Assembly (NCBI RefSeq): GCF_021134715.1 | Contig: NC_060028.1 | Location: 766,501-830,500, forward strand | DNA: 64,000 nt | From: Daphnia pulex | Taxonomy: Eukaryota; Arthropoda; Branchiopoda; Diplostraca; Daphniidae | Reading direction: 5' to 3' | Part shown: positions 25,835-56,842 of the stretch, one piece after another | How the letters are laid out: each line of letters starts with the position of its first letter | Numbering within the stretch: position 1 is the first letter of the stretch | Notes under the pieces: generated by a model | What the model was told of the DNA's origin: nothing | Database searches by the model: none | What the model saw: the letters and a program-made list of their open reading frames with translations, nothing else | Made by a program: the position numbers and the translations under genes

Positions 25835-25867
25835 ATAAAGAAGATGAAAGCTAGAAAAAAATTCAGT
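25835..25867 (+). promoter_or_regulatory. Core promoter of secreted-protein gene D1
   Basis: ATAAAGAAGATGA at 25835 lies about 28 bases before TCAGT at 25863-25867. The same arrangement occurs upstream of D2 to D5. Confidence 0.6.
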
Positions 25868-26009
25868 TTTCTCCTTAACCTCATCGCTGACACTCCTAGT
25901 TTTCACTTCGAACTTACCGTACAATCGCAAAGTGTCCCAATACAATATCACGGCGTATACAATAAAGCCGCCATCGACATACGTAAGCTTGTGTGTACGG
26001 TACATCAGG

Positions 26010-27533
26010 ATGGCTGGTGTATTTTCAAGATTCTTGGTCACTTTGCTGTTGTCAGTTGAATTTAGTGCCCAGCAGCAGAGTTTCTTACCAGGAAATAGTA
26101 CAGCAGAATTGACCCAACTGTCGACCAAGCAAATGATTAGCAAGACCTCATTGTCTCCTGAATTGTTTCAACATCAAATAAAGGACAGGAAGTCTTACAA
26201 AAGTAATCAAAAGGAACCGAACAAATTTTCTGAACTCACCAAGAAAATGAAGAAATGGTTGAAAACAAAAGACGAAAAAGTTAATGTGGAACATTTGGTA
26301 GTGGTACATGGTATCCCTACACCTGTCGTCGATCGGACGTTTCCAATAAACGGAACGATTCCGGAAGATGGCTGCAGCTCCACTTCCGTGCGTTTCGATG
26401 ACGGAAACTGCTATCCACTGATGGGAAGGAAACCTTGCGGCGACCCTACAAGGTATCTCATTGTTGATCCTCACACATTCAAGGTATGCAAATCAAATGT
26501 TATCCGACAAACAGCTGCGGAGATTAAGCAAGAAAATGTTATCAGGGACGGTGCGTTTCGCGCCCTTGCGGAAGAGACAGGGTCTTGGTCAAACGTACGG
26601 GACTTTGTCACGACATCAACGACAGATCCGAATGCGAAGGAGGCCGACGACTTTTCTATTCGCCTTACGGAGAACCCGTATGCGATTGCCCAGTCGGAGA
26701 GTATCCATTCCCGAACCCTCGGAGTGATTGTGTTGGGCTTTTTACACAAGGTAAGCAAATTGTTCGGCATTTTTACCATGTCTCACATTATCGTTAATTC
26801 CTGATAGGACCCTGTCCCTATGGGCAAGTCGTTGCCATTTCTCCTGACGGTTCTTTGAAATGCATGACATCCAAATGCCCCTCAATCTATGATGGCGATG
26901 AATATTTTTGGAAGCAGAAGCCATTGGTGCCGACCAACGACGGGAAATGTTATGAACTCGGCTCAACTGGCCGATGTTCAAAGTATGACGACATCGCACC
27001 TCTGCTGTTGGGTCTCGACATTTTGAAGAACGAATTGACGTGTGTCGACATTAACGATCCTTCGTCACCCTATTTCTTTTCCCAAGAAGAAAACGATCTA
27101 CTCGACAGCCTTTACGAAACCTTCTATCAGGATTACAACTTTTTCCAAATCTATCTGGTCCACCAGATTCTTGAGCATGAAAACGAATTGAAATACGGTA
27201 AGAAGAAGAAAAAGGCTCCTAAAGGAACGTACGAAAGCAGACTATCGGGGCCGAAATGGAACTCATCAGCTGGTAAAGGATCTCCCGTCATATCTTGTGG
27301 GACTGGTAGTGGTCAAGGAAAATGCAACCATTTCCAAACGTACGAAAAATTTCACATTTTAAAATTATCTTAATTATAATAACCACTTGTGAATGTGATT
27401 ACGCAGATGGGAATCGCGGAATTTTAACCCAAAACAACCAATCAAATTCAAAGAGGAAAATAACAATGGATGTTTGGGTGGTGGAGTTCCAAACAAGCAG
27501 AACGGAAGTTGTCAAGCAAAGTTCCGAGAATAA
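26010..27533 (+). CDS. Secreted Cys-rich protein, DUF4789-like (D1)
   Basis: Exons 26010-26483, 26546-26750, 26808-27339 and 27407-27533; 445 aa in frame. The start follows the family pattern of a hydrophobic leader then SAQQQSF. After the signal peptide comes a variable, Lys-rich segment (KKMKKWLKTK), then the conserved Cys core: EDGCSSTSVRFDDGNCYPL, GRKPCGDP, GLCHDIND, YGEPVCDCPVGEYPFP, GPCPYGQVV, DGKCYELGSTGRC and EENDLLDSLY. A Lys run (GKKKKKAPK) and a Gly/Cys tail (NNNGCLGGGV, NGSCQA) encoded by exon 4 close it. CYELG...C, CPxGQ and Cys spacing match DUF4789 proteins of arthropods, whose function is unknown. It is extracellular by inference. A polyadenylation signal lies at 27638-27643. 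It converges on receptor M1, about 410 bases between stops. Confidence 0.8.
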
Positions 27534-27945
27534 TTTGGACTATAAGACAATAAATTGGACGCCACAGAAAATGCAGTTGCCCAGAAATGTTTTTGTCGAT
27601 TTGTTTTTCTTTATTCTGTTAACTCTGCTAATAACTTAATAAAAATACTAAATATATGTCTATTATTCTATTAAGGAAAAGAATATTTATTGGACAGATT
27701 TAAAATATTCCGACTTGAAGTATATTTCTATTCGGAATTTTCATTGCAACGCGCAAGTCTTTTACGAAATACTCTAAATGTTTACGACTGAATGTTTTGC
27801 AGCGGTTAGATTTTTTTTACCTACAGCCTACACCAATAGACAAAATCCTCCAAACGAAACAGGACACGCGTTAACAAGATGACAACAAACTGACAACTGG
27901 CTCGTTTAACAAGACATTTTACGAAGTGTCACTTTCAATTATTAC

Positions 27946-30900
27946 TTATAAATAGCTATACTCGTCAAATTGGAAACTATCAAGGCTGGAAATGGTCTCT
28001 GAACAAGTGGCGGGCGATGATTGTGTCATTACGTTGGACGTGGAAAGGTCATTATTGCCAGGGTGTGTTTGCTGAATAACATTTCCGTCGGCAAGCGTTA
28101 TTAGGGGTTCTCGTTGGAAAATGATTTTGATGTGGGACCACAAGAATTTTCGAACGTCTCGATTCAAAAGAATAAAATTCACGAAAATAAAAACCCCGCG
28201 CGATAAGTTAAGCTGCTGGCAACACTCTAAGAAATAATACACACCTACGTGCGATCCGTCCAATCGAAAAGTCAGATACGAGATGAATTCAAATATCCAC
28301 GGAATTCCGGTGATGAAAAATAGTTTAACCGCCATTTTCAAACTGAATTAAAATGAATTTTCTAATAAATGTCACAGATGAATTCCTTAATGATGCACTT
28401 ACTCTTCCTGCTCTTTGGAGGCTGTAGAAATCTTTCGATTAGAACGGATAGCCACGTCTTGTTGTCTTTTCCAGCAATACATCAGGTTGGAATTGAACAT
28501 CAAACTCAGGAAAAAATAAATGTCAAGTAATAGCAGAATGCCGATAGGAACGTGATAGAAAATCATTTGCGATATCGAATTTCCTACAAATGTTCCCAAA
28601 GAAGTTTCAATAATAAAATATCTATAGAACCGTTAAGAAATGAAAACTAACCATCAGGAAACCAACAGCGGTCGTAGCCAAAGTTAGGATTGACAGTATC
28701 GGAGACACCCAATGACGTAGACCGAAATTGTGCGATGATTGTAGTGATCGTTGCCAAGATTGGAACACCCCAACCGAACGCTGAATAAGGAGTGAATAAC
28801 CTATCGTTGGTGACCTTAAAGGATCCGCTGGAAAACGCTTTAAAAATAATTTTTGACTTATTGACCTCATTAATTAATTAAATAGATATTTACCTAAAGA
28901 TGTGGTAGTAGTCAAAACAGTACACCGTTAGCCACGAAAACGAGGCTATCAACGACGAGTAGGCAATGTAGCCTGTTAGGCAAATAAAAATCAAATTTGA
29001 CCAAATATTATCAGAAATCGGAATAATAATTTTACCAATGGCGATACATGAGCTTCTATTTGATTCGACAAGCTTTAGTTGAATTAGAGCTAAGCAAGTA
29101 AACGCCTAAAATGAAAAAAAAAATTAATAATAGTAATAATAATAATAATTACACTGTAATCTAGTCAAATGCCTATTTAATAATACTAAGGCTAATGATA
29201 TGACGTGACAAAGTAAAATACGGCCGGTTAACATCATGGCCATGGTAGTAGTTCTACTTGTTCTTCTATTTGTCTTTCCTCCAAAAGCAGTTATAACTAA
29301 CTTTGCAGACCCTGCGAAATGGAACAAGTTTCAAGTTTTAGCGATAAATTGGCTGAATAAAAGAAAGCGGATGGATTTACCTGAGGCTGGAACGAAAAAA
29401 TAAATAATAAATGTCGCCAATAAACCCGCAGTAGAAATCAACAGAATTACCGGACGATAAATTTCAAAAGGTTCAACGGTAATGCAATGGAACACTTGCG
29501 CGTTATAAACAACGGCCTGCTCATATCTTGTAAGTCCACACAAAAAGGGTGAATTTTAGATTTGAGGTCCCAGTAATTTTCAACGAACGTGTGGAGCAGA
29601 AATGAAAGTTCATTTTTTGAATCATTTCGGAATATCGGAGTGTCTTTAGAATTATTGGCAAATAATAGGGGAATCGCTTGTTGAAGTTGATCAGATCTGC
29701 AGGAACCATTGAACGTTGTGTTGGGGTTGAAGATGACACTCCAAATTTTGAAATAATTCTTGAAATCTTTGTTAATGGAATCCAATATAATCTTGGCTGG
29801 TTCAGTGGGTTCGTCCTCATATTCCTGGCTGGGCCACCACCATAGAGGTTGACAGATATATTCCTCATCCATTACGTGCCCATATGGACAACATTTGGGG
29901 ATTTTTAATACAGTAGGATTACCATGTTGACTGTCGTTATTCGGGTAATTAAACACGGGTGCACTAATTGTGGTATCAGTAAATGTTGGTTCAGTGAATG
30001 TTGGTTCATTGAATGTTTGTTCAGTAAATGGCGATTCAGTCAATTCAGATCTATCAATGAGCTCTGATTCCATAAAACTTGGCTCTTCACCGGAGCAGTG
30101 CATGGCGTAGGTTGATGTAGAAGGTAAACTGGTGTAGTAATCAAACTCTACCATGTCGTCCAAACAGTAATCTTCTATAGAGACTAGTAGATTGCTTGAG
30201 TTGCCTTTCCTGCCGCTCATCTTGATTTCCAAACTACCGTTGGAGTGCAATTGGAATTCCGTGGTAAGAGGTGGGTTGGAGCAATTGACAAGGCCAAAAC
30301 GGAAGAATAAATCATTGGACTTTTCATTTAACTGGAGATTTTCAAAGAATCGCGTCACGAGGCCTTGATTTTCCCTGCATCTGGGCCTGCCTTCAATTGC
30401 AGAAAGACTGTTTAAGGATTCACTTTGACGGCAGCATTTCCGGATCACTCTTCTTCCATTGAATTTTGATGCAAACAGTTCCGCATCTTCGTCAGATTGT
30501 AAAAAATCTAAACGCAATTTTCCCGAGTTGTCAATAGCAATTGTGGGGAATCGGATTGGCATAGAACATACGACAGCAATTCTTTGTACCTATAATTTAA
30601 TAGCATATATTTAAAATTCAAATTCAAGGAAAATAAATTTCGTTATACCTTCGTGAAATTCCGTTTTTCCGTATAGTCATCGATGCAATATTTGTCGTAC
30701 TCTATGATGAGAAACTTATGCGGAACTAACAGCTGTCCAGAAGAAAGGGCGTAGAAGACATCTCCCATTCTTAGCCAAGGTTCCAAGTAGTCCAAAATAA
30801 GTCCGCCACTATCCGGCGTGCAATTACGTGGAAATCCTACATCGACTTTGACATCTTCAATGCTGTATTGGGATGGATAATTTTGTTTAGATCCCAAGAA

Positions 30901-31286
30901 AATTCCACGTGATTTGTTAAGGGCTGGAGATAGAGGATGGCTGCTGCTGACCGAATACTTGACGCACCGATCAGCATCAGGAATTTTTTCCCCCGCATTA
31001 TAATTGTATAATCGTCCCGGGCCACAACATTTTCGTATCACGAACTTATTTTTCGATCTTTTCTCATGCAATGGAATTGTAAAAAATGGAGTCAGCGCAA
31101 TTGTACAACAACTCAAGAAAGCTTCAAATACCCATTGACTGAAGGGGCCGGAATTGGCCATGGCAGGGTTATAAGTGACGAGTTTGGCGAAGTAGATTGT
31201 AATTGAATTGTTGCTGCGATAACAAACTCTTGCAGCACCAGGATAAGTGAAATGAGGCTGAAAAAAATCATTTGACTCAAACCCAT
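27946..31286 (-). CDS. Methuselah-like receptor M1, frameshifted before the first membrane helix
   Basis: Exons begin 31286-31132 (signal peptide MGLSQMIFFSLISLILVLQ), 31057-30649 and 30589-29381, then small exons carrying membrane helices, with the last ending at 27946. The ectodomain has three Cys modules: FVIRKCCGPGRLY, RRVIRKCCRQ and IPKCCPYGHVM...CQPLWWWP, the last typical of Methuselah proteins. A Thr/Glu/Pro linker (TEPTFTDTT) lies between the second and third. The seven-helix part shows YSAFGWGVPILAT, NFGYDRCWFPD and GIPWIFEFI...RGVFIFVNFILLNRD. Just after FCVD, at 29521-29540, M1 has 11 bases where M2 and M3 have 18, so the frame is lost before helix 1. Exon 3 is 1209 bases against 1201 and 1210 (both 1 mod 3). 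As it stands it would make a soluble ectodomain, or is a young pseudogene. Confidence 0.78.
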
Positions 31287-32092
31287 TGTTAATTTGTCTT
31301 AATCCACAAATTAAAATGTTACACAATTGTATGATAAACCACAGCACCGTAAGTTCTTGCTGTAAAAACAAAGGGAAAGGAAACAACTATTTAACATGTG
31401 GTTTGCACCAGAAAAGTTGAACTTATCACACCCGCAGTCAGCCCACACCGACTCTCTCATGGAACAGCGTGAAAGAAACTGAGAGTCATGTAGAGTTTGC
31501 TTGAACATTTTAAATAGGGATTCAGTTTGAGCAACCTTTCAGTTTCTATATTTGGGCACTCATTCGTACAAGTGAGCTATGAAGTTATTTAGTTAATGTA
31601 CGTTGAACGATATACATAGTACTTCAATTATCAATTACTGAGTCGGTAGCTTTACACACAAAAAACGAAGGTAATCATCATCTTTCGTCGTTTGATTTTT
31701 CGTTTTCTTCAAATCTTAAAGCAACGTCAAATCTCATTCACATTTTTGTTCACGCATTTGGTTAACGACCAAATTCAGAATAAACCAAACTTGTTCCGTC
31801 TTCGATTTTTCAAGGGCAACTAGCTAAGAAAAAAAGGAAAGCGACTTTGGAAAAAGAATAGCTAGATATTTGTGACAAATTCTCCTTTTTGAAAAAATTT
31901 TAGGGACAGGATATTCCTAACAAGGAAGAACGAAATTGCATCGCCACAAGCGTGCAACAAGCCGTCTAACCTGGTTTTGTAAATGGCTGTGGACATATTA
32001 AAAATCTATGACGGCCAGTGTTCATCGACTGGCCCTACGACTGGCCCTATGACTGGCCCGTAAAATTGGGAATGAACTAATGAGCCGCTTAC

Positions 32093-32290
32093 CTTGAATC
32101 AAAGCGGAATCCGGAAGTCGAATTTCGATGAAGAGTTGACGGACTTGACAGCACGAGGCTTGACTAGATCTAGATGCAAAATAAATTGTAGAAGATGCAA
32201 GTTGTCTGTGGTGTAGATATACACTAAAAAACGGGTTCCCTCCCAGCATATTGACACTTTCTGCATTGAAGGACATTAGTAGTACACTAA
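32093..32290 (-). other. Conserved upstream exon-like segment, copy 1 (receptor side)
   Basis: On the minus strand the segment ends GATTCAAG|GTAAGCGG, with the donor at 32092-32091. The same segment with the same donor occurs at 33927, 42472, 43695 and 53844. It lies 0.8 kb upstream of M1, so it may be a 5' leader exon of the receptor gene. A second conserved donor-like site (AACAG|GTGAAT) lies further upstream near 32521. Confidence 0.45.
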
Positions 32291-33106
32291 CACATTAAAT
32301 AGTAGTATAGTCAGTAACATTGGAGTAAATAAACTTAAGTGAATAAAATACTAAGTCTGCCAACGCCCAATCTTGGGGTCAGGGACCATTCCACGCACCA
32401 GCGGACAGGTGTAAAAGGGAAACCATTTCGAAAAAAATCTGGTTTTAACTAGAAATTATTTCTCCTAAAATTTATATAAGTAAATCATTAGCTTAAATAT
32501 GGATCTTAATTAAATCAATTCACCTGTTTTGGGATTCGCCTCGTCACTAGCCGAAAAATAAGTCCAATTCGAGGAATATACGTCAGTCAGTTACGGAGCA
32601 TACCTTGGTATAAGCCAACAGGAAAGTAAAACCAATTGAGATAAAAATGTTTCGGTAACAAAAGAATAATTGTCTTTATACCGACGTCTGAGGTTTCTAT
32701 TGTCGTTTGGTTGGAGGGAGAAACTGCCAAATGGGAACCGGTTCCGTGGAAACAAAAATTCGAAAAAATTCTATTCCAATTTCTTTAGGCTTGACTGAAA
32801 TCGGTTGAGAAAAGAAACGCGTGCAAGTGAAACAAAAAAATGCCGAAAAATGAGCAACAACAACAACAAAAAATACGAAAACCTCATAAGATGCATACAG
32901 TCCTACAAAACAAAACATTTGATTTGCCCTAGTATTAACTTTCACCCATTCTTTTAAGATCGCCCCAGTTAAACGGGGAATCCCAGGAAGGCTTTCTCCG
33001 ATAGCAAATACACTTTGAGCTGTCGCCACAAGACAGGGGTTTCCAATCCGCTTCAACTCTGGCGATCTGCGCAGCAACACAGTTTGAATCTATACAGGAT
33101 AGGATG

Positions 33107-33500
33107 GATGCGGTTATCGTAAGTCTGGCCGTTTTAATCTTATCAGTGATGACCATTCTACTAGGTTCCAGTGTCCAGCACTAGAGAATTCAACCACCAT
33201 CGCACAGGATTATTCCAGCAATCGTCGATTCAATACATGACCCCCCCCCTCCTAACATACCAAATAAAAGACCGAAATCTTAGAAACGCAAAGGACAAAG
33301 CAGATTGGCGAAATTAACAACAAAATTTGACGAGGCGGTCGAGGAAAAAACAGAAGTAATTAGAACAAGAAATATTTGATTTGGACCACATGGTAAACAT
33401 ATAATAGATAATTCCATCCATTTTCTATCAGACGCTTTTAGCTATAATGGATCGATTCCGGAATACGGATGCAACCCAACCCTTCTTATTAATAACCATA
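33107..33500 (+). pseudogene. Remnant of a secreted-protein (D) gene, exon 1
   Basis: An ATG frame reads MDAVIVSLAVLILSVM and SSVQH, then stops. This matches the D5 leader (MDDVIVLLLSVM, SSAQH). Downstream, NGSIPEYGCN survives near 33450 from the start of the Cys core. A poly-C run and frame losses lie between. No later exons follow. Confidence 0.65.
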
Positions 33501-35699: not shown

Positions 35700-36150
35700 A
35701 ATGTATGGAAACCTGTTACGGTAATTGAGCCATAGGAAATTTTTTGAAAAGTTTTCGTCCACCTTGTTCAATTGTCGTGCACCTGCACTAGCTCTAGTTA
35801 AAACCAGTTCAGAATAGAAACGATGTCGGAGACCGAAATCAACGACAGGTACGACGGTACGAGTGAAAATGAGGCCGCCGTCTTTACTATTCGCCTTACG
35901 GAGATCCCTAATGCGGTTGTCCCGTAGGACAAGTATATCCATTCGCTTATATTCACCTCGGGACAATTGTGTTTTCGCTCTTTTCACAAATAAGTAAATT
36001 GGTGAGCATTTTTACGTTGTTTCACATTATCGTTCATTCGTAACAGGAACCCTGTCAATACGGGCAAGTTCTGTGAGGTGCGTGACACCCGAATGCTCCT
36101 CAAACCTACGATGGCGACAAATTTTTTTGAAAGCAGAAGCAACGATGACC
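35700..36150 (+). pseudogene. Remnant of a D gene, exons 2 and 3
   Basis: Around 35870-35985 a decayed exon 2 can be read (GRRLYYSPYGDP, then a stop, then GCPVGQ). Around 36045-36150 there is a decayed start of exon 3 (PCQYGQV, then broken). Exon 1 is missing. It lies directly upstream of the D2 promoter. Confidence 0.6.
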
Positions 36151-36273
36151 TAGTAATAACCTATAGACTAGTGTGAACACATCAAAAAAGGGAAAACAAA
36201 AACAAAAACTGGAAAATGAGTGCTCATTTTCGTTTTCCAGTTTCTCCGGTTGCAAATGCATGCGCTAGAAAGA

Positions 36274-36308
36274 TATAAAGAAGATGAGAGCCACGAGACA
36301 AATTCAGT
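36274..36308 (+). promoter_or_regulatory. Core promoter of secreted-protein gene D2
   Basis: TATAAAGAAGATGA at 36274 is followed 30 bases later by TCAGT at 36304-36308. Confidence 0.65.
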
Positions 36309-36432
36309 TTTCTCCTGAACCTCCACGTTGAAACTACTCGTTTTCATTTCGACTTACTTATCCTACACAGTGGCAAAGTGTCGGAATTCAATTGCCATCG
36401 ACTTACGTATAGGCTTGTGTGTTCCGTGCAAG

Positions 36433-37894
36433 ATGGATAACGTTCCATTAAGTCTGTTGGCAGCTTTGCTGTTGTCAATTGCAGTTTCCTCTAGTGCCCA
36501 GCAGCAGAGTTTCTTAGCAGGAAACAGTACCCTATCGTCGTTGGCACCCAAAATTACCAGCAAGACTTCATTGTCTCCGGAAGTATTTCAACATAAGAAG
36601 ATAACGGACAGATCCCACGAAAGCAACGACATCGACGAGGAACCGAACACTTTCAATCGACTGAGAAAGAAAATGAAAAAGTGGTTGAAAAAACAAGAGA
36701 AAAAGGAAGTGCAAAATTTGGTAGTTATACCCCGCGATCCTACACCCATGATCGATCAGTCATTCCCCACATCAGGATCGATCCCGGAAGACGGATGCGA
36801 CTCCACTTCCGTGCGGTTCGACGACGGAAACTGCTATCCACTGATGGGAAGGAAACCTTGCGGCGACCCTACACTCTACGTCACTGTCGATCCTTATACA
36901 TTCAAGGTATGTAAATTAATAATTGCCCAATGTGCGCCACCAACAATTGCGGAGATTTAAAAAAAAACAAATTTTAGGGGCGATGCACTAAGCGCCGTTG
37001 CGGAAGAGAAAGGGTCTTTGTCCCTCGCACGGGACTTTGTCACGACATTTACGACGAATCCGAATGCACGGGAGGCCGGCGACTTTACTATTCCCCATAT
37101 GGAGATGCTGTATGCGATTGTCCCATCGGAGAGTATCCATTCCCTTACCCTCGGAGTGATTGTGTTGCGCTTTTACCCAAGGTAAGCTAATTGCCAAGCA
37201 TTTCTTTTACAACGTCTCGCGCTATCGTGTTAAAATCAATTTCACTCGTGATAGGACCCTGTCCCTATGGACAAGTGGTAGCCATCAATTCCGATGAATC
37301 CTTGAGTTGCATGAAATCCAAATGCCCTGCAATCTACGAGAGTGACGAATATTCTTCCGATTATTGGAAGCAGAAGCAGAAGCAGCTGGTGCCGACCAGC
37401 GACGGGAGGTGTCATGAACTCGGAACTACTGGCCGTTGTTCGAATTATGACTACACATATTCGTTGTTGGGTCTCAACATTCTGAAGAACGAATTGGAAT
37501 GCGTCGACGTCACCGATCCTTCGTCGCCCTATTTCTTTTCCCAAGAAGAAAACGATATCCTTGACAGCATTTTCGACGAGTTTTATACAGAGTACAACCT
37601 CTTCCCCGTCTATGTAGCCTACCTCAGTGTCAAACAGGAACATGAAGCCAAGTACGGTAAGAAGAAGGGCCCGAAAGAAACGTATGAGAGAAGACAATCC
37701 TCTCCGGGAATTGTGGCACCTTCCAACCCGAGTTGTCGGCCTGGGAGTGGACAAGGAAAATGCGGCTCTATATTAGTGTAAGAAATAATTCACAATGTTT
37801 TAAAATTGTTAATGTAATTACATTTGGATACGGTTTACACAGACCCCAAAACCAGAAACGTCCAAATAGAGGACCAGCACCGGCAAGATTCTGA
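36433..37894 (+). CDS. Secreted Cys-rich protein, DUF4789-like (D2), frameshifted
   Basis: Exons 36433-36906, 36978-37181, 37255-37777 and 37843-37894 are recognisable by homology. The leader is MDNVPLSLLAALLLSIAVSS, followed by the Lys-rich stretch and the Cys core (DSTSVRFDDGNCYPLMGRK, GLCHDIYDESEC, CDCPIGEYPFP; exon 3 with GPCPYGQVVAINSDES). Exon 2 is 204 bases, whereas it is 205 in D1, D3, D4 and D5: a T run at 37171-37174 is one base short. With the normal splice sites, exon 3 is therefore read out of frame and stops at once. Exon 4 also loses the Gly/Cys tail through a shift. This is either a recent pseudogene, a gene making a shortened protein, or a base-calling error in a homopolymer. 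The polyadenylation signal is at 38043-38048. Confidence 0.7.
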
Positions 37895-38329
37895 AATTTT
37901 CAACTGGTTCAACTCTCGTACGTTGGTGGTGAGTGCCCTACTCGTGCTCATTAACTTGCCAAATTATTGGACGCCACAGGATGGAACTGTCCAAATATTT
38001 GCTAAATCAATTTGTTTTTCTTGTTCTGTTAGTAACTCCACTAATAAATTATAAAATTTAAAAAACGCTTATAACTGAAAATGCACTTAATTAATTTGAT
38101 AAATCTACCATTGATTCAAACTTGGTTTTGCTTCTGATTTATTTTTTTTATCGACGTGTGTTTCGTGATTGTGTGGATATTACTATTTACTTGAAAGGAA
38201 ATTTAAGGGGTTGGCAGAAAAAGATGAATCAATATTGACTCTATCCTAATAGACAAAAACCCCAAACGAAAGTTGATGGAGGCTTCGGCTTTTAATCAGA
38301 TGTTACAAGGTTTCGTTCCTCACATCGTG

Positions 38330-41646: not shown

Positions 41647-42471
41647 TGTTAATTTCTAAATCCACAAATGAAAAACGTTACACAATTTGACAATTGTCTT
41701 GCGCCGCAGTGACGCCACAGCACCGCAAGCTTCTATTTTTGTAAACACAAGGAAAACGGAAACAAATATCAAACACGTGTTTTTGCACGAGAAAGTTAAA
41801 CTTATCACACCCGCAGTCAGCCCAACACCGACTCTCTCATCGAACAGCGTGAAAGAAACTGAAGGCCATGTTGAGTTTGTTTTAACATTTTTAATTGTGA
41901 TTCAGCCATAGGGCAACCTTCAGTTTCTGTATTTGGGTAATCGTCCGCACAAGTGAGCTAAAAGTTGTTTACTTAATGTACGTTACGCATAGTCCTTCAA
42001 TAATAATTACCAGTCGATATTAAGTAGCTTACACGAAAAACTAATGACATAGGGCCTAATAATCTTCTTCGCTTGATTTTCGTTTTCTTCAAATGTCAAT
42101 TCTAATATACATTTTTGTTCACGCATTTGTTTAACGACCAAATTCAGAGTTCCAAACTAAACTTGTTTAGTCTTCGGTTTTTCAAGGGCAACTAGCTATT
42201 AAAAAAGAAAGCGACTTTGGAAAAAGAATAGAGGAACTTGTGACAAATGCGTCTTTTTTATAAGTTTTTAGAGACAAGATATTCCTAAAAAGGATGCACA
42301 GAATTGCATCGCCACAAGCGTGCAACAAGCTGTCAAACTGGTTTTGGGAAATAGCTGTGCGTAAATTAAACTATCGTGACGTAAAGCGTAAATTAACTAC
42401 GACGGGCAGTGTTCATAGACTGGCCTTCTGATCGCCCTGATAAATTGGGAATGAACTAATGAGCCGCTTAC

Positions 42472-42680
42472 CTTGAATCAAAACGGAATCCGGAAGTCAA
42501 ATGTCGATAAAGAGCTGACGGAATTAACAGCACGAGGCACGACTAGATGCAAAATACTTTTGTGGAAGATGCAACCAGTCTGTGGTGTAGAAATACACAA
42601 GAAAACGAGTTTTCCTGCACTGTTCCAGTCACACTTTCTGCATTGAAGGACATCAGTAGTACACTAACACATTAAATATA
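42472..42680 (-). other. Conserved upstream exon-like segment, copy 3
   Basis: It matches copy 1 (32093-32290) with the same donor (GT at 42471-42470). It lies about 0.8 kb upstream of M2, the same offset as copy 1 from M1, which supports a leader-exon role. Confidence 0.45.
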
Positions 42681-43694
42681 GTAGTAGTCAGTAACATTGG
42701 AGTAAATAAACTTTTGTGAATAAAATACCAGGGGGTCTGCCAACACCCAGTCTGAGGTCAGGGACCATTGAACGCAACAGCGTACAGGTGTAAAAGGGAA
42801 ACCATTTCGAAAAAAATCTGGTTTCAACTAGAAATTATTCCTCCTAAAATTTAAAAGTAAATTAGTTTCAATATTGATGTTAATTGTCCTTACTGATACT
42901 CAAGACTGAGGTTTCTTGACGTTTTGCTGGAGGGACAAGCGTCAAGCAGTCAAAAGGAACCGGTTTCGTCGAAACAAAAATTCGCCGAAATTCTCCGCCA
43001 ATTTCCTTGAGCTTGACTAAAACCGGTTGAGAAATAAACCCGTGTACGTGAAAGCTGACGGCGAATGAGTAACAAAACACTTTGATAACCTCTTTAAAAG
43101 ATGCACACAACCTATTTTGGTAAAATAAAACAATCCCAAAAAACATATGATTTGCCCTGTTACCTTTCACCTTCTTTTTTTTTTTTTAAATCGTTCCAGT
43201 TAAACGGGGAACAACGGGAGAAGAGAGTAGTTACTTCCACTTGGATCATCATTTCATCCGATTGGAACAACGTAGTTTTGGGGACGCTTTTGTTTATCTT
43301 TCTATAGTTTCAAAACTTCCGTCATCTTCGACTTGCCAAGATAGCTAGCTAAGGAAAAAGGAATCTACCTTGGGCTAATAGAAAAATTGTATACAATTAC
43401 GTCTCTTAAAAGCTACTCGATAAATAACGATGTAAGAAATTGGCCCTTAAGGATCGATTTGAGCATAACTAGTTTGCTTACTTCACAAAATACTGAAGGG
43501 GAATCCCCTATGAGAGAGAAAGAGTTTGTTGTGATATTGTTTAAGAAATCAATTTCGTTTCTTGTTACCGAACAGAAGCAAAGAGATGAGAAACAAACTA
43601 CAACTACGAGAGATGATTCATTATTAAAATTCTATCACTATCCTGGCTGGGTGGGTTAAGTGGTGAACTACTACTACGCCTTAAATCCGCTTAC

Positions 43695-44822: not shown

Positions 44823-45876
44823 ATGGATGGCGTAATTTCAAGTCTGTTGGTCGCTTTGCTTTTGTCACTCGCATTTTCCTCTAGCACTCAACAGCAGAGC
44901 TTATCGGGAAATAGTACAGAATTTAAGACGTCTTACAAGGAATCGCACAAATTTTCTCAGCTGAACAAGAAAATAAAGAAATGGTTGGAAACTAATGAGG
45001 AAACGTTTGATGCGGAAAATGAGATAATAATAAGCGATACCCCTACACCCGCCATCGATCAGCCGTTACCCGCAAACGGATCGATTCCGGACGACGGCTG
45101 CGGCTCCACTTCCGTGCGGTTTGACGACGGAAACTGCTATCCACTGATGGGAAGACAACCTTGCGGCGACCCACAACAGTGGGTCACTGTCGATCCTTAC
45201 ACATTTAAGGTATGCAAATTTAAAATGGTCAGATGTGTGTCACGTAGAAATTGCGGAAATTAAACGACCTAATTTTACCAGGGGCGATGTACTCCGCGTC
45301 TTTGCGGGAGAGACAGGGTCTTTGTCCCTCGTACGGGACTTTGTCACGACATCTACGACACATCCGAGTGCCGGGGAGGTCGTCGTCTTTACTATTCTCA
45401 ATACGGAAAACCGGTCTGCGATTGTCCAATAGGCCAGTTTCCATTCCCGAACCCTCAGGATGATTGCGTTGCGCTTTTTACAAGAGGCAAGCTAATTGCT
45501 AAGCACTATAATCGTGTTACTATCAATTTCATTTGTAATAGGACCCTGTCCCTACGGGCAAGTGGTAAACATTACTTCTGACGGCTCTATGAGTTGCATG
45601 AAATCCAATTGCCCCACAATCTACGAGAGTAATGAATATTCTTCGAAGCTTTGGAAGCAGAAGCAAATGGTACCGACCAGCGACGGGAAATGCTACGAAC
45701 TGGGCTCAGCGGACCCGTGCTCAAATGATGACGAGACATCTTCGCTGTTGGGTTTCGACATTTTGAAGAACGAATTGGTATGCGTCGACATCACCGATCC
45801 TTCGTCACCTTATTACTTTTCCAAAGAAGAAAATGATTTACTCGATAGCGTTTTCGACGGGGTCTACCAGGAGTAA
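44823..45876 (+). CDS. Secreted Cys-rich protein, DUF4789-like (D3), C-terminally truncated
   Basis: Exons 44823-45209, 45282-45486 and 45542-45876; 308 aa in frame. The leader is MDGVISSLLVALLLSLAFSS, then a shortened propeptide-like segment (about 25-30 residues fewer than D1 and D4). The Cys core is intact: DDGCGSTSVRFDDGNCYPL, GRQPCGDPQQW, YGKPVCDCPIGQFPFP, GPCPYGQVVNITSDGS and DGKCYELGSADPC. The exon 2 donor is AGAG|GCAAGC, a GC donor, while all paralogues have GT at this point; using it gives the family's 205-base exon. Exon 3 stops at 45874-45876 after FDGVYQE, losing the FF-I/VYL helix, the Lys run and the tail. A decayed exon 4 remains near 45970-46060. The polyadenylation signal is at 46153-46158. 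It may still be secreted and partly functional. Confidence 0.72.
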
Positions 45877-46179: not shown

Positions 46180-46740
46180 GAAAACGTATTTTCGAAAATT
46201 TCTATTGAAAAGAATAAAATGCGTTTTGCAGAACTTTAAGAAACAGACCTAATTAATTAGAGCCGTCCAATCTTGAAGCCAGATATGCGATGATGAAACT
46301 ATAAATAGGAATTAATGTAGTAAAATATTTCACGGATGTTTTATTTAGTTATACTTACTCTTCCTGATCTTTTGAGAGTAGAGATTTCTTTAGCTTAGAA
46401 CACATTACCATCTTGTGTTGTTTTTCCTAGAAAATTCTTCAGGTTGGAATCGAGCATCAAACTCAGGAAGGAATAAATGTCAATAGGAGATGGGAGCGTG
46501 AAAGAAAAGGTTTTCAACAAAAATTTTTAAAGTGTCAATTAACCATCTCTGGAGACGATATTATTAAATTAATAATACTATCTGACAGCAAACCAACAGC
46601 GGTCATACCCAAAGTTGGGATTGACAGTATCGGAGACACCCATCGCCGTCTACCATAATCGTGCGATCTTGTAGTCATCGTTGCCAAGATTGGATAAAAC
46701 CCCAATCGAACGCTGAATATACGGGATGAAAATAAAAATT
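46180..46740 (-). pseudogene. Remnant of a Methuselah-like receptor (3' exons)
   Basis: Three fragments align in order with M1-M3 exons 9, 8 and 7: about 46180-46300 (NFILFN/helix-7 region and RLDG), 46370-46500 (NLMYC-like, MFDSNL) and 46590-46730 (GYDRCWF, GVSDTVNPNFGYD region and SAFDWGF). All carry shifts and stops. Exons 1-6, including the ectodomain, are gone. Directly to the right comes the upstream region that belongs to the next unit. A large deletion removed the receptor partner of D3. Confidence 0.7.
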
Positions 46741-47530
46741 GAGAAATAGAAGAGATTTTGATCTGCTGAAGTCTGTCACTATTCCGGTTGAGTGGGTTAG
46801 TATCCGGAAGTGGAATCTCGATGTAAAGCGTTGATGGACAACGCGAGCCATGGCCAGTTCCCCAAATCAATACTTCGTAGAAAATGGAAACCGGTGTTGT
46901 GAGTGACACATTTCTAGACTTTCTTTACTTTTTCTTTTGACATTTTTCCCCAGTTTTTTTTAGAAATCTTTGGAGCATCATATACCCCTTGGGGGTCCCC
47001 AAAGTATTGGAGACTGCGGAAGAAATCCTCCAGACATTTATCAGGTTTTTACTTCTTAGCATTCGAACACCGCTAGGCATTTGAAAATAGCGCTCTGAAA
47101 GAATTTGTGTTGCAAATGATTATTTAATCGCCTGTTTTATACAATGATAATGTTCGCCGCTTAAGCCTCGGCAGTTTACCTCTTCCTATCAAGGGAAATA
47201 AGTATGAAAAAAAAACTGTTGTGATAATAGAAAAACTGGAAATTTGTAGATAAATTCGCTCCCATTGTTCAATTTGCGCGCCCCAATATTCTGAAAACTC
47301 AAAACCAGTTGAGAAAAGAAAAAGTTCGAGCGTGAAAGCTGTCGGTGATGAGTGACCCAGTATCATACCCAATAGTTTCCTGGGCACACATCTCAAAAAG
47401 GCAAAAGGAAAATGAAGTTAACCGTTCACTCTGACCGATTTTCTTTTTGCTCATCTCGCATCTCAGTTTGGATGAAACAAACTGGATGGCGAGAGTAGTT
47501 CACAATTTTCTCCAATTTCGCTCACTTGTT

Positions 47531-47566
47531 CATAAAGAAGGTGAGAGACGAAGAGCAAAGTTCAGT
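47531..47566 (+). promoter_or_regulatory. Core promoter of secreted-protein gene D4
   Basis: CATAAAGAAGGTGA at 47531 is followed by TCAGT at 47562-47566. Confidence 0.6.
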
Positions 47567-47705
47567 TTTCTCTCGAATCTCCTCGTTGCAACAATTGCTG
47601 TGTTCACCTCGGCTCAACTTACTGCGCAAAGTGTCGCGAATAACATTTCACAGTGTACAATCGGCATCGACACACGTACGCTTACGTACGTAACAGTACA
47701 TCAAG

Positions 47706-49217
47706 ATGGATGGCGTAATTTTAAATCTGTTGGCCACTTTGCTGTTGTCAGTTGCGCTTTCCTCTAGCGCCCAACAGCAGAATCTCTTACCGGGAAATGT
47801 TACAGAAGTGATCCAATCGTCGGTGGTAGCCAAAATCGCCAGCAAGACCTCGTCGACTCCGAAACTGATCCCGCATAAAATAACGGACAAATCCTACGAA
47901 AAGAAGAACCAAAACACATTTTCTCAGCTGAACAAGAAAATGAAGAAATGGTTGAAAACCAAAAAGGAAACAACGTTCGATGTGGAGAATATGGTTATCA
48001 TTAGCGACCCACCTACACCCGCCATCGATCAGACGTTTCCAGCAAAAGGATCGATCCCGGACGACGGCTGCGACTCCAGTTCCGTGCGGTTCGACGACGG
48101 AAAATGCTATCCACTGATGGGGAGGAAACCTTGCGGCGACCCACAACAGTGGGTCACTGTCGATCCTAAGACATTCAAGGTATGCAAATTTAAAATGGTC
48201 AAATGCGTCACCTAACAATTTCGAAAACTAAACAAACAAATTTTTTAACAGGGACGGTGTGTTCCGCGCATTTGCGGAAGAGATAGGGTCTTTGTCGTTC
48301 GTACGGGACTTTGTCACGACATATTCGACAAATCAGAGTGCCAAGGAGGCCGGCGACTTTACTATTCCCCATACGGAGATCCTGTGTGCGATTGTCCCGT
48401 CGGAGAGTATCCATTCCCGTACCCTAAGAGTGATTGCGTCGCGCTTTTTACCCAAGGTAAGCTAATTGCCTAATTGCATTTTCCTTTATCTTAACATCAA
48501 TTTTAATCGTGATAGGACCCTGTCCCTACGGGCAAGTGGTAGCCATCAGTTCCGACAATTCTTTGCGTTGCAAGGCCTCCAAATGTCCCCCAACCTACGA
48601 CAGTTATTACAATTCCAATTCCAAGCCGAAGCAAATGGTGCCGACCAGCGACGGGAAATGTTACGAACTCGGCACGGCAGGCCCGTGTTCGAGTTACGAC
48701 GACACATCTTCGCTGTTGGGTCTCGACATGTTGAAAAACGAATTGGAGTGCGTCGACGTCACCGATCCTTGGTCGCCGTATTTCTTTTCCCAGGAAGAAA
48801 ACGATCTGCTGGACAGCGTTTTCGACCAGTTCTATCCCGAGTACGACTTCTTCCGAATCTACCTGGTCTACCAGGGTCTGCAGCACGAAAACGAATTGAA
48901 ATACGGCAAGAAGAAGAAGGGCTCTAAGCAACACCCAAGAAGACAAGGCGGAACATCAATCAGCGTACCTTCCAACCCGCCTATTCGGCCTGGAAATGGA
49001 CAAGGAAAAGGCAACTCGAAATTAGTGTAAGAAATAATTCACAACGTTTTAAAAATTTAAGTGCTAATATAATAATGACACGTGTGGATGTGGTTCACGC
49101 AGACCCCAGCAGCCAAACCGTGGTACGAATCAAGCAGTCAAGCCAGCTAAACCAACCGGCTGCACAGGAGGTCAAACGTTCAACCCTTCAACTGGTTCTT
49201 GTGCAGGTCGTGGTTAA
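47706..49217 (+). CDS. Secreted Cys-rich protein, DUF4789-like (D4)
   Basis: Exons 47706-48179, 48252-48456, 48516-49026 and 49103-49217; 434 aa, fully in frame. The leader is MDGVILNLLATLLLSVALSS, followed by SAQQQNLLPGN with N-glycosylation sites. A Lys-rich stretch (NKKMKKWLKTKKE) precedes the Cys core (DDGCDSSSVRFDDGKCYPL, GRKPCGDPQQW, GLCHDIFDKSEC, YGDPVCDCPVGEYPFP, GPCPYGQVVAISSDNS, DGKCYELGTAGPCSSYDD). Then come FFRIYLVYQGLQHENE, a GKKKKG run, and an exon 4 tail (KPTGCTGGQTF, STGSCAGRG). About 20 Cys suggest a disulfide-stabilised extracellular protein. It is the least damaged member together with D1 and D5. The polyadenylation signal is at 49320-49325. It converges on M3, 358 bases between stops. 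Confidence 0.82.
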
Positions 49218-49575
49218 ATTTACTTACCGAATGATATGCTGGACGCCACAGGATGCAGATGTCCAGACTTTTGTTAATCGATTAATTCTCTCCTTTGTTT
49301 AAATCTGTAACTTATCAATAATAAAATTTAAGAAAAAAAATTTCCGTCTTAGAAAACGATACATATATTGATCGGAAAGATCTAAAATTCAGACTTTTAG
49401 AAAATGCCGATGCGAGAAACCTCCTGTATGAAAATACTCAAAATTTGTACAACGACTGAATGTTTTAAGCGGCGGTTAGATTTGGTGGACCCTACACCAA
49501 ATGGACAAAATCCCCAAAAGAAACTAGACGGAGGTTTTTGACAGGTACAAAACACTCAAGGTATCGTTTATAAGG

Positions 49576-52500
49576 TTATAAAAAGCTTTGCTCGTCACAT
49601 GGTGCATTCTCGACGCTGGAAATTGTTTGGGAACAAGTGACGGACGAAATTTGTGTGGTAGCATTGGACGTGGAAAAATCATCACGAGTCACATTGCCAC
49701 CGCCAAGCGTTTCTCGCTTGGAAATGATTTTGACGCGGGACCACAAGAAATTTCGAACGTCTCGATTCAAAAGAATAAAATTGACGAAAATGAAAACGCC
49801 GCGCGAGGTGTTGATTATGACGCAGAACTCAAAGAAATAATACCGACTCAAGTTTAAGCCGTCCAATCTTACTGCCAGATATCCAATCAATTCGAAGATC
49901 CAAGGAATTCCGGTGATGAAAAATAGTTTGACCGCCATTTTCAAACTAAAAATTCGAAATGAAATTTAGAAATAAATTCTACAGATGTATTTTCTTTTTT
50001 GTGGTTTGACTTACTCTTCCTGCTCTTTTGACTCTGAAGAACTCTTTCGATTAGAACGGATAGCCACGTCTTGTTGTCTTTGCCAACAATGCATCAGGTT
50101 GGCATTGAACATCAGACTCAGGAAGAAAAAGATGTCAAGTAATAGGAGGATGCCAACAGGAACGTAAAAGAAAAGTATTAGCGCTGACGAGCTTTCTGCA
50201 ACAATGTAAGAAGATGTCAATAAATTATCGATGGAACCGAATATACGAAAATGAAAACTAACCGGCAGGAAACCAACAGCGGTCGTAACCAAAGTTGGGA
50301 TTGAAAGCGCCGGAGATGCCCATTGCCGTAGACCGAAATTGTGCGATGATTGTGATGATCATTGCCAAGAAAGGAACACCCCATCCAAATGCTGAATACG
50401 GGATGAATAACCCATCGTTGGTGACCTTAAAGGATCCGCTGAAAAACGTTTAAAATAGAACTTTTGTAACATTCGTTCACGTTTGATGTCAAACATTTTG
50501 TTTGTTACTTAAAGATGTGGTAGTAGTCAAAACAGTACACTGTCAGCCAGGAAAATGAGGCTATAAACGCCCAGTAAGTAATGTAGCCTGTTGCCAAAAA
50601 TTTAAAAAAAACTTAAATTTAATTTGACAAAATGTTTACACGATTAAAAATTTTACCGAGCGCGACACAGGAGCTTTCACCTGATTCGACCAGTTTTAGT
50701 TGACCAATCGCCAAGCAAATAAATGCCTAAAATGTACAATAAACAGCTAATTACCCTATAATTTTATCCAATGCTCATATTATTAATAATACCAATGCCA
50801 ATGATATGACGTGACAAAGTAAAATACGCCCGGTTAACATCATGGCCATTGTAGTTTTTCTACTTCTTCCACTATTTTTCTTTCCTCCAAAAGCAGTTAT
50901 AACCATTTTGGCAGAACCTGTGAAACGTTACAATTTTCATAATTAATCGATACTTTGACTGAATAAAAGGAAACATAAATATTTACCTGAAGCTGGAACG
51001 AGTAAATAAATAATAAATGTCGCCAATAAACCCACAGTAGAAATCAGGAGAATTACTGGACGATGACTTTTAAAAGACTCGATGGTAAGGCAATGGAAAA
51101 CTTGGGGGTTATAATAAACTTCCCGCTCTTGTTTGAAAAGTAATTGGTCCACACAAAAAGAACGAACTTGCGACTTGACATCCCAGTAATTTTCAATGAA
51201 CGTGTGGAGTGAAAGGGAAACTCCACCTTTTGAATCATTTCGAAATATTGGAGTAATTTGAGAATTTTCGGCAAACAAGGGAATCGGTTGTTGAAGTTGG
51301 TTGGGTTTGCAAGAACCGTTGAACGTTGGGTCGGGAACGAAGATGACGCTCCAATTGCTGTGATAGGCCGTAAAATCAGAGTTAATGGATCCTGATACAA
51401 TTACAGCTGGTTCAGTAAATTCGTCTCCATATTGTTCGCTGGGCCACCACCATAGAGGCTGACAGGTATATTCTTCACTCATTACGTGCCCAGGTGGACA
51501 ACATTTGGGAATGGCGATTAAAGTCGAATTATCCGATTGATCGTCGTTGTTCGAGTAATTAGACTCGGGCTCACTAATAGTTGTATCGGTAAATGTTGGT
51601 TCAGTGAATGGCGGATCCGTGAACGGGGTATCGGTAAATGGCGATTCAGTCAATTCATCAGTGAATTCTGGTTCGATTAAATTTGCTTCTTCACTGGGGC
51701 AGTACAAGGCGTAGGTTGAAGTAAACGGTAAACCGGTGACATAACTAAACTCTACCATGTCGTCCACACAGTAATCTTCTATAGAGACTAGTAGATTGCT
51801 TGAGTTGGCGATTGTGTTATCCATCTGGATTTCCAAACTACCGTTAGAGTTCAATTGGAACTGCTTGGTACGAGTTGGGTAGGAGCAATTGGCATAGCCG
51901 AAGCGGAAGAATAAATTGGTCGAGTTTTCTTTCGTTCGGAGATTTTCAAAGAAGGGCGTCACAAGTCCTTGATTTTCCCTGCATCTGGGCCTGCCATTAA
52001 ATTCAGAAGTACTGTCTAAAGTTGACATTTGACGGCAGCATTTCCGGATCACTCTTCTTCCATTGAATTTCGATGCGAACAGTTCCGCATATTCTTCAGA
52101 TTTGATGAAATCTAGACTCAATTTTCCTGAAAGGTCGATAGCAGTTGTGGGGAATTTTTGGGTTTCCATAAAGCACATGAAGGCCATTCTTCTCGCCTAT
52201 ATTTTCAATGTTTGAAATTTTAAATGAGAAAATTAATAAAGTAAACAAATTATACCTTGGTGACGTTCCTTTCGTCCGCATAGTCTTCGATGCAATAGCT
52301 GTCGAATTCCAAGAAGTAAAACTGATGAGGAACTAACAACTGTCCGGAAGAAAGGGCGTAGAAGAGATCGCCCATTCTGAGCTCAGGTTCTAAAAAATCC
52401 CAACCATCCGGCGTGCAACTGCGCGGAAATCCTGGATTGACTTGGACATCTTCAACGCTGTAACGTGGTGGAAAACTTTGTTTGGATCCCAAGAAAATGT

Positions 52501-52903
52501 CGCGTGATTTTTGAACCGCTGGTGATTGCCGATGGCTGCTGCTGACCGAAAACTTGACGCACCGATCGGCATCTGGAATATCTTCCGCCGCATTATAATT
52601 GTATAATTGTCCAGGGCCACAACATTTTCGTATCACGAACTGGTTTTTCGACCTATTCTCGTTGCAATGGAATTAATTGAATCCAATGAAAAAGAACACA
52701 AAAAAAGGGGTCAGTGAAATTGTGTGCACAATAACTCAAGAAAGCTTCAATTACCCAACGACAGACGGGGCCGGAAGTGGCACTGGTAATGGCAGGCTCG
52801 ACGAATTTGGCGAAGTAGATTGTAACTGGAACGTCGCTGTGATGACAAACTCTTGAAACACAATTGAAACGAGGACGAAAAAAGTTCTCGCGGTTAACGC
52901 CAT
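49576..52903 (-). CDS. Methuselah-like receptor M3
   Basis: Exons 52903-52755, 52652-52256 and 52196-50987, 50917-50793, then helix exons near 50727-50655, 50590-50515, 50445-50265, 50195-50015 and the last ending at 49576. The leader differs most from its siblings (MALTARTFFVLVSIVFQEF) but rejoins them at FQLQSTSPNSS. The ectodomain keeps all three CC modules (FVIRKCCGPGQLY, RRVIRKCCRQ, IPKCCPPGHVMSEEYTCQP) and has the longest Thr/Pro/Phe linker (TESPFTDTPFTDPPFTEP). The seven-helix part is intact where read: VILLISTVGLLATFIIYLL, SAFGWGVPFLAMI, LLLLDIFFFLSLMFN, ITGIPWIFELIGY and GVFIFVNFILLNRDVRNFL. The exon 3 length (1210) gives the same phase as M2, so no frameshift. Likely a working receptor at the cell surface. 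Confidence 0.86.
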
Positions 52904-53843
52904 TGTGAATTTGCAAACCGACAAGTTAAAACGTTACACAAATTTACGTGACCGCACCGACTACAATCTCACGTTATAACAAGGAAACCAAATATCAAAC
53001 ATGCGCTGGTTTTATACACGAGAAATTGCATATAACCTATGAGACCTGCAGTCACCTATCACTCCGACTTGCTCACGAAACAGCGTGAAAGAAACTGGAA
53101 TCACGGCGATTGTGTTGTATATACTTTAAACAGTGATTTAGCCGGAGCAACCTTGACTTCCTATTCGGGCACTTGACGATACAAAGGGAGAGGGGAAAAG
53201 TTGTTAACTTAATGTACGCTGACATAATATGCAAAGTCCTTCCGCAATTTGCAAAATATTAACAAATCAATTTAGGGAATAACCAAATCTTTATCGTCTG
53301 AGTTTTCTACAAAATTTAGAACAATGTCAACCCTAATTGAAAATTGGGAAGCGTCGGATGAAGGATACGGAGTTTCCGAACCTTCTGAGTCTTCAATTTG
53401 CCAAGGATAACTAGTTGAGAAAAAACATACGAAAAAGGAATCAACCTTGGACGAGGAATAGAGAAGTTTGCTACAATTGCGTCTTTTTGAAAAGCTGCTC
53501 AGACGAGATAACAATGACAGATATTGGCCCTCGGGGATCGATTCAAACGTTACGTGTTTTTTATCAGCTTTGCAAAAATACTGAAGGGGAATCCCCTCGG
53601 AGAGAGAGAAGGAGTAAGTCATGATATAGTTTGACAAAAGTTTACGATTTTGGTTTCCGGTTTCCAATAGGAATCTAAGCTACCGTTCCCGATTGGAATC
53701 AAATTACAATAATAATGGCTACTTACATTATGCGGATTGGTTCGACAAATAGGAAATATTTACAAGATGACGATTAAATTAATTCCGTCACTATTCCGGA
53801 TGAGTGGGTTATATGTTAAGTGGTAAACTAATACGCCGCTTAC

Positions 53844-54070: not shown

Positions 54071-55110
54071 TGCGCTATTCCGCACATTAAAACAAAGTGC
54101 GACAACGCCCAGTCAGTTTTAGTTTTAGAAAAATAAGAATCAGTCCATTCCTCCACATTTGGACAGGTATAAAAGGAAAGCTTTTCGAAAATCTGGTTTT
54201 CCATCATTTCTTTCTCCTACAATTTTAGAAAGTATTTAAATTGAATTCTGAATGTTAGTAATGATATCATCTCACCTTTTGAGTTTTTTCTCATCCGATT
54301 TGTCCTAAACGGGGAATTTCTTGGTCCTTCCTGTACCACACCTTAGCCTTGTCTAATGTTCCTGTAAAAGAGCAAATTGAAACCAACGTTATGAAAACAC
54401 TTTGACTAAAGTGTGCCGATGACACGAATAATTGCCTCTAGATAAAAATGACTAAACGTCCTTCGGGCATACGGGAACCGGTCGTCATCACAATCAGCAA
54501 ATAGAAACTGCGCAAAAATTCTCCAGCCAAGTCCCAGTATATACTTCAAGTGGTAAACCAGTGGAGAAAAGAAACGCGGGGGCTTGTGAAAGCTGTCGGT
54601 TCGCTGATGAATAACCTACAAAGAAAAAATGTATACATAGTAACACATGAGATAACAAAACAAAAACCAAAATGTGAAAATTTGAATTCACCGTTAGCTT
54701 TTATCCATTACTTCGTCTCGGCCAGAAGAAAACATCGTGCCAATTAAACGGGGAAAACCCAGCGGGGGAGATGATGATACTATAATAGCACGACGTACAC
54801 ACTGTGTTTCACGGAGGTAAATATGATAGTATACGCTCACGGGTGTGTGTACATCCGATTCCATAACTATCTGTGCCATCGCCCAAGGCGCACCAACCTC
54901 CAAAAATAAAAATAAAAACCATTCCTTGACAGAATGATTGATACTTTGCAAAGGTTGGCTTTCTCATACAGCCATCCCGTTTCTGATTTAAAAATAAAAT
55001 AAAATCCGGCCAACCCCTATACCTAGTTGCGAAACCTGCTGCAAGTGCGTACTGGAAGCGGTATGTACACGCCGTAAGGAGTGGCACAGATATTTATACC
55101 AAGTCGGATG

Positions 55111-55148
55111 TTACAAAAAGGTGAAAGCTAGGAAAAGAATAGTTCAGT
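55111..55148 (+). promoter_or_regulatory. Core promoter of secreted-protein gene D5
   Basis: The TATA position is weak here (TTACAAAAAGGTGA at 55111), but TCAGT at 55144-55148 and the leader sequence are conserved with D1-D4. Confidence 0.5.
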
Positions 55149-55261
55149 TTTCTCTTGAACCTCGTCGTCGCAACAGCGTCCGCTTCAACTTTCTAGTGAT
55201 CCGTGTGACGACACTTTTCTCTCTATCCATCGGTGTGAAACTGGCGGAAACTGGACACGGG

Positions 55262-56842
55262 ATGGATGACGTGATTGTTTTACTCTTGTCAGTGATGGCC
55301 ATTCTAATAGGATCCAGTGCCCAGCATCAGAGTGGTTTACCCCGCGCAGGATTAATTCGTCAATCGTCCGTCCCATACGCTGGCCACAGGAGATCATGGC
55401 CACCAAATTCCCTGACGTACGACGAAAGGGACGGGGAATCGTATCAAAGCGGAGGCGACGGACACAACCGATTTGCTCAATTGAAAAAGAAAATGTCGAA
55501 ATGGTTGAAGAAGAGAGAGAAGAATAAGAAATCGGAACAAGAAGCTTTCGATCCGGATAACATGGTCATAGTACTGGACGCAGCCACCCCCGCCTTCGAT
55601 CAACAGTTTTCGGCCAACGGATCGATTCCGGACGACGGATGCGACTCCAATTCAGTGCGGTTCGACGACGGCCAATGCTACCTTCTGCTGGGGAGGGAAC
55701 CCTGCAAGGATCCAAGACATTGGGTCACGGTTGACTCATCCACATACAAGGTATATGCAAATTGAAAGGTGTGTCAAGCAAACAATTGCGGAAGACTAAA
55801 AAAACGATTACATTTTGATTAGGGGCGGTGCACTCCGCGCCTTTGCGGAAGAGACAGGGTCTTTGTTGTACGAACGGGACTTTGTCACGACATTTACGAC
55901 ACATCCGAGTGCCGCGGAGGCCGTCGTCTTTACTATTCCCAATACGGAAAACCGGTCTGCGATTGTCCCATCGGTCACTATCCATTCCCGTACCCTCAGG
56001 ACAATTGCGTCCGACTTTTTACCCAAGGTATAAAAGAAAATCGCTGATCATTAACGCCTCCCTCGTCTTAACAACTTTTTTTCTGTTACAGGACCATGTC
56101 CCTACGGCCAAGTGTTGTCTATAAACTCGTTGGGTGATTTGAGTTGCATGGCATCTCAGTGCTCGGCTAAACCGCCGCCCACCTATTACAGGCTGGACAA
56201 TTATCCACCCGAGGAGCAGAGGCCAATGCTCCCGAACGAAAACGGGGATTGTTACGAATTAGGATCGGCTGATCCTTGTTCGAGTTACGGCTATGCCCCC
56301 ACTAACAAGGTGCTGGGATACGACGTTGTCAAGCGCCAGTCCGAGTGCGTGGACGTCGGTGATGCTTGGTCGCCCTATTTCAATTCGCAGGAGGAAAACG
56401 AATTACTCGACACCGTCTACGACCAGTTCACGCCAGAGTACGACTTTTTCCGCATCTGGCTCGTCTACCAGGGTCTCCAGCTGGAAGAGGCGGTGAAACC
56501 TGGCAAAAAGAAGAAGAAGAAGAAGGTCATCAATGGCAATTACCAAAAGAGGCAAGACACTTTTGGCATTTTTCAAGTTCCCGGCGGCAGAATTCCGCTA
56601 CTGAATCCTAGTCGATCTGGATACAGAGTAGGCAAAGGCACCAATCCCATCGTGTGAGTCGAATCTCTATTTTTTAAATGTACAAGATTCCTGTAATAAT
56701 TTAAGTTTTCTGACGCAGGCCCGAGCGAGTTCGAAGAGATCTTTCGATCAGACAAGCTGTCAAGCCCGCCATTTCAACCAACTGTAGTGGCAATCAAGCA
56801 TTCATCGCTGCAACTGGTCAATGTCAAAATCGTTTTTTTTAG
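55262..56842 (+). CDS. Secreted Cys-rich protein, DUF4789-like (D5)
   Basis: Exons 55262-55750, 55823-56027, 56092-56653 and 56719-56842; 459 aa in frame. D5 is the most divergent copy: leader MDDVIVLLLSVMAILIG, a longer basic propeptide-like region (RHRRSW-type, KKKMSKWLKKREKNKK), the Cys core (DDGCDSNSVRFDDGQCYLL, GREPCKDPRHW, YGKPVCDCPIGHYPFP, GPCPYGQVLSINS, CYELGSADPCSSYG), then FFRIWLVYQGLQ, a seven-Lys run (GKKKKKKK) and a tail with NCSGNQAFIAATGQCQNR. I chose the ATG at 55262 over the in-frame upstream ATG at 55121 because it aligns with the leaders of D1-D4 and begins a clean signal peptide. The polyadenylation signal is at 56964-56969. No Methuselah-like gene follows it; a rhodopsin-like receptor does, on the minus strand. 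Confidence 0.82.

Follow-up and report, generated by a model that had tools for sequence, protein, structure and literature searches.

Methuselah and Methuselah-like (Mthl) receptors are class B G-protein-coupled receptors (GPCRs), and in Drosophila they have secreted ligands, namely Stunted for Mth and GBP for Mthl10, according to the accessible part of one account (PMC9067537). The accessible text of another states that receptors of this group have expanded in Daphnia pulex (PMC4768249). In the portion of the Daphnia Methuselah literature open to us, an Mthl15-like transcript is described as falling under predator cues, and no locus that combines such receptors with DUF4789 genes is named; DUF4789 was not named in the literature searched either. 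Judged by these term searches alone, the locus described here appears to be undescribed so far. In the NKR-P1/Clr receptor-ligand clusters, too, receptor genes share one gene complex with those of another family, as described in the available parts of two reports (PMC4041007, PMC6218473). There, binding has been established by structure (PMC6218473), whereas for the DUF4789 proteins (D) and receptors (M) of the present locus relatives of both are unlinked. On a wider scale, the available text of Hurst and Lercher reports that a human ligand and its receptor are found on the same chromosome at about double the expected frequency, an excess that the authors tie to block duplication (PMC1309615).

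The window analysed here is a stretch of 64,000 nucleotides of D. pulex (C12:766501-830500 of genome G000; the genome searched comprises 133.2 Mb in 13 contigs), in which gene models were built from reading frames and spliced alignment, and repeats were found by self-blastn. It contains five DUF4789 genes on the forward strand, interleaved with three Methuselah-like receptor genes and a receptor remnant on the reverse strand. D1 (26010-27533, 445 aa) is open throughout and is followed by M1 (27946-31286), D2 (36433-37894), M2 (38330-41646, 929 aa, open throughout), D3 (44823-45876), the remnant (46287-46730), the intact D4 (47706-49217, 434 aa), the intact M3 (49576-52903, 918 aa) and D5 (55262-56842, 459 aa, open throughout), which is the most divergent D copy. 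D1, D2, D4 and D5 have four exons each, D3 has three, and M1-M3 have nine each. Self-blastn also revealed two decayed forward-strand fragments between M1 and D2, one of D exon 1 (33131-33479) and one of D exon 2/3 (35842-36069, with a protein match at C12:802358-802462). Upstream of the array lies a 155-base tandem repeat in three copies (23567-24030, 97%). Elsewhere in the window are a protein kinase domain adjoining ankyrin repeats (5721-7012, reverse strand), the latter containing a tandem repeat of 111 bases, tyrosine/threonine-rich repeats with units of 24, 30 and 69 bases (12047-13174), where the frame 12047-12499 gave no Pfam match, and an HMG-box exon (19998-20630, reverse strand).

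An earlier note on this DNA had described four pairs converging with about 0.3-0.45 kb between stops. The spliced models bear this out for D1-M1, D2-M2 and D4-M3, with 412, 435 and 358 bases, respectively; beside D3, the remnant lacks nearly all of its last exon, so that no such distance can be defined. D5 also falls within the range given for the pairing (25835-56842), and its convergent neighbour is a class A (rhodopsin-like) GPCR, read from 59116 to 57950, instead of an M gene. This GPCR (PF00001, E=4.5e-12) is a single long open frame on the reverse strand about 1.1 kb off, lies outside the repeated unit and in no self-blastn repeat block, and has rhodopsin and dopamine receptors as its closest solved sequences, at a weak level. 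Each receptor had also been placed head-to-head with the next D gene. This orientation holds, but the genes are not close, since their starts are 5.1 kb (M1-D2), 3.2 kb (M2-D3) and 2.4 kb (M3-D5) apart. Such distances make a shared promoter unlikely, and a bidirectional promoter between M and the next D, considered as a candidate, was rejected on the same distances in the gene models.

The D proteins belong to the DUF4789 family, as all of D1-D5 have PF16033 exon matches and D4 matches the full model (89.4 bits against a cut-off of 27, E=2.4e-25). They differ from the matched domain in carrying longer N- and C-terminal parts beyond it. They begin with a hydrophobic stretch, taken on visual inspection for a signal peptide, and D is probably a secreted cysteine-rich protein. 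The predicted structure of D exon 3, based on a five-sequence alignment, reached a mean pLDDT of 52.5, too poor for a fold search.

On the receptor side, M3 starts with a hydrophobic stretch (again judged by eye), continues with three CC-type extracellular segments and passes the 7tm_2 model (44.3 bits against a cut-off of 20.6, E=1.7e-11), from which we infer that M is a class B GPCR. Nineteen PDB sequences matched M3 at E≤1; the best were adhesion GPCRs over the helices (E=1.5e-07), and Smoothened was among the weaker ones. The closest M relatives in the genome are three receptor genes on contig C2, which keep the three-segment ectodomain, so that three successive CC-type segments are found in 6 of 6 receptors of the group. 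The ectodomain of Drosophila Mth, in contrast, consists of one segment. Methuselah_N (PF06652) was not recognised in M3 at E≤1, but the C2 relative MB carries it above the cut-off (25.4 bits against 21.5; MA reaches 10.4 bits), and its presence in a relative of the same build makes the label Methuselah-like reasonable. By profile comparison, segments 1 and 2 are related over 35 columns (probability 90.8%), and segment 3 showed no recognisable relation to the other two (7.5% and 0.8%). For M3 exon 3, a three-sequence alignment gave a predicted structure with a mean pLDDT of 30.9, too poor for a fold search.

The earlier proposal that the pair duplicated as a unit is confirmed. Self-blastn aligned 25768-32511 with 36195-42885 (73% identity), 25424-31895 with 47106-53493 (72%) and 36275-42281 with 47532-53510 (75%), each collinear through D, the gap and M. 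The repeated blocks thus span 6.0-6.7 kb at 72-75% identity, and homology runs collinearly and in tandem across genes, introns and intergenic DNA, as in a segmental tandem duplication. In a three-way alignment, the introns of units 1-2, 1-4 and 2-4 are separated by distances of 0.296, 0.314 and 0.249 in D and 0.303, 0.284 and 0.237 in M, and the copies of both genes look to be of one age. Collinear blocks with about equal intron divergence on both sides mean that the pair was copied as a single block; the repeated geometry therefore counts as one founding juxtaposition rather than several. Between the stops, conservation is among the lowest of the whole unit (distances 0.40-0.48; 0.39-0.51 on the 5′ side of D). 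This low conservation bears on the possibility that D and M are unrelated in action and that shared regulation, through convergent 3′ ends or a common chromatin domain, favours the block. The mere 358-435 bases between stops in three pairs would suit such regulation, but neither the divergence of that stretch nor the 2.4-5.1 kb between starts, which speaks against common promoters, does so, and we regard this explanation as improbable.

In the gene models, D4-M3 is the one unit of the five in which neither gene is damaged. In M1, exon 3 is 7 bases shorter than in M2 and M3 just before TM1, so that the frame is lost and the product would end after the ectodomain, with the later 7TM exons still open. 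As read, M1 could encode a soluble ectodomain of three extracellular segments or be a pseudogene. In D2, the T run before the exon 2 donor is one T shorter than in all four other D copies, which shifts the frame by −1 if splicing does not resort to a poor GC donor. Decay is therefore one-sided in both units, D1 being open beside a broken M1 and M2 open beside a broken D2. D3 has lost its C-terminal part through an early stop in exon 3 but kept its DUF4789 part, and the receptor next to it survives only as matches to M exons 7-8. D5 is open, and no M gene was found beside it: when M3 was aligned with splicing to 56900-58200, the match was at chance level only. The M1 and D2 lesions come from a single assembly and could be base-call errors or polymorphisms; without them, three pairs would be intact.

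Matching topologies of the D and M trees had been suggested as a check, and when run on the copies of this one genome the trees conflicted. M2 and M3 are joined strongly, both in the receptor protein tree (100/99) and in the DNA around exons 7-8 (100/98), whereas on the D coding DNA the groupings D2+D4 (p-AU 0.039) and D2+D3+D4 (p-AU 0.0078) are rejected, although these p values are optimistic, the tested groups having been picked after the protein trees were seen. Instead, D1 and D2 are joined, with modest support in the best coding-DNA tree (77/81) and with 83/88 in the protein tree, where D5 falls outside D1-D4 (94/98, below the starred level). The D signal is itself inconsistent, since pairwise dS ranks D2-D4 closest (0.57, against 0.67 for D1-D2 and 0.66 for D1-D4), contrary to the D tree. 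Moreover, the comparison sets three M copies against five D copies, and is of a kind that gene conversion weakens.

Such conversion is suggested by the way in which M2 and M3 diverge along their length. Over the first extracellular segment their dS is 0.14 and over the 7TM part 0.20, against 0.33-0.43 for the second segment, the linker and the third segment, and their distance around exons 7-8 is 0.077. We infer, as the simplest reading of this pattern, that M2 and M3 exchanged sequence without their D neighbours, which would fit co-duplication but not pairs whose members need to match each other. It would also partly explain why M shows smaller synonymous distances (0.46, 0.45 and 0.30) than D. 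Whole-gene pairwise dN/dS was 0.24-0.43 for D and 0.39-0.46 for M, which is, on these ratios, ordinary purifying constraint on both families. Positive selection on D or on the ectodomain was considered and rejected: in the M segments dN/dS does not exceed 0.68, and the D core and N-terminus give 0.21-0.55. Ratios near 1 are confined to the D C-tail, where five pairs gave a value and two of these reach 1.04 and 0.90, over few codons.

In addition to the array, we have checked the relatives of both families in the rest of the genome. The PF16033 profile gave 82 exon matches, which together with C6:2071655 make 83 match starts and, merged within 20 kb, 26 D loci including that of the window. For class B/Methuselah receptors, 32 starts, mostly one per gene and with C4:127046 (below the cut-off) and further exons omitted, gave 21 loci, a count that contains weak matches (E up to about 0.005), some of which may be non-receptors. 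Only one of the 26 D loci lies near such a receptor and only one of the 21 receptor loci near a D, and both are those of the window; an association outside it was thus not found among these loci, and for the other D loci on receptor-bearing contigs the nearest such receptor is at least 347,967 bases away. Because the profile searches were run exon by exon, and 7tm_2 at E≤0.01 misses even the M genes of the window, a diverged receptor gene of several exons could have escaped detection close to some other D locus. The flanks were also searched directly. The M long exon has nine matches in the genome, four in the three receptor genes on C12 and five in the three on C2 (35-48% identity). Within the 23 kb and 30 kb searched around the C2 receptors, D1, D2, D4 and D5 found nothing below E=1.5, and the best match of D3 had E=0.39. 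Conversely, M3 was compared with 15 loci adjoining D relatives, among them one unit of an array on C6 and the tail-side flanks at four places. Its best match had E=0.053 at 14 loci and 0.058 on repeating the search with the fifteenth; flanks were read for part of the D loci. The nearest D relatives outside the array lie on C6, on C4 and elsewhere on C12. Those at C6:2067419-2091595 are arrayed in tandem at intervals of about 4.6 kb, and one stretch of 316 bases is found again, fully identical, at a distance of 4,642 bases, indicating that this array is very young or recently homogenised. In the C6 unit searched, no frame beyond those of the D relative exceeded 112 residues, and the best M3 match had E=4.8.

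These results bear directly on the idea of the earlier note that the secreted protein is a ligand, co-factor or co-expressed partner of the receptor. In its ligand or co-factor form, D would act on the adjoining M, and linkage would be kept because dosage or specificity must match. Duplication as a unit, constraint on both partners and the Drosophila precedents for secreted Methuselah ligands speak for such a relation. The idea is not supported, however, in view of the unlinked relatives of both families, D5 without an M, the one-sided decay and the discordant trees. Human ligands, moreover, are no nearer their receptors than chance in the available text of Hurst and Lercher (PMC1309615). Unlinked relatives would not in themselves disprove binding, as ligands can act on receptors encoded elsewhere in the genome. 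We consider a ligand or co-factor role for D very unlikely. That the D proteins are linked, co-duplicating secreted partners of three-segment Methuselah-like receptors in a crustacean array, where D5 and the truncated M1 would be decoys or forms lacking a partner, is likewise a very slight prospect.

Taken together, the genomic evidence makes it highly probable that the repeated pairing reflects the hitch-hiking of neighbours by segmental tandem duplication, with D and M acting independently. A Methuselah-like receptor gene probably landed tail-to-tail beside a DUF4789 gene once, and the D+M block then multiplied by segmental tandem duplication, as the collinear copies show. The copies decayed piecemeal afterwards, as seen in this assembly, and M2 and M3 probably swapped sequence by gene conversion, as their divergence pattern suggests, the two proteins presumably acting independently throughout. 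Against such hitch-hiking, 3 of the 3 M genes on C12 still adjoin a D, and purifying selection and linkage have lasted over dS of 0.30-0.67, longer than one need expect of a neutral by-product. As it stands, the locus neatly illustrates how two unrelated families can come to look like partners through block duplication. If it were true that D binds M, an arthropod receptor group would be de-orphaned and DUF4789 would gain a function.
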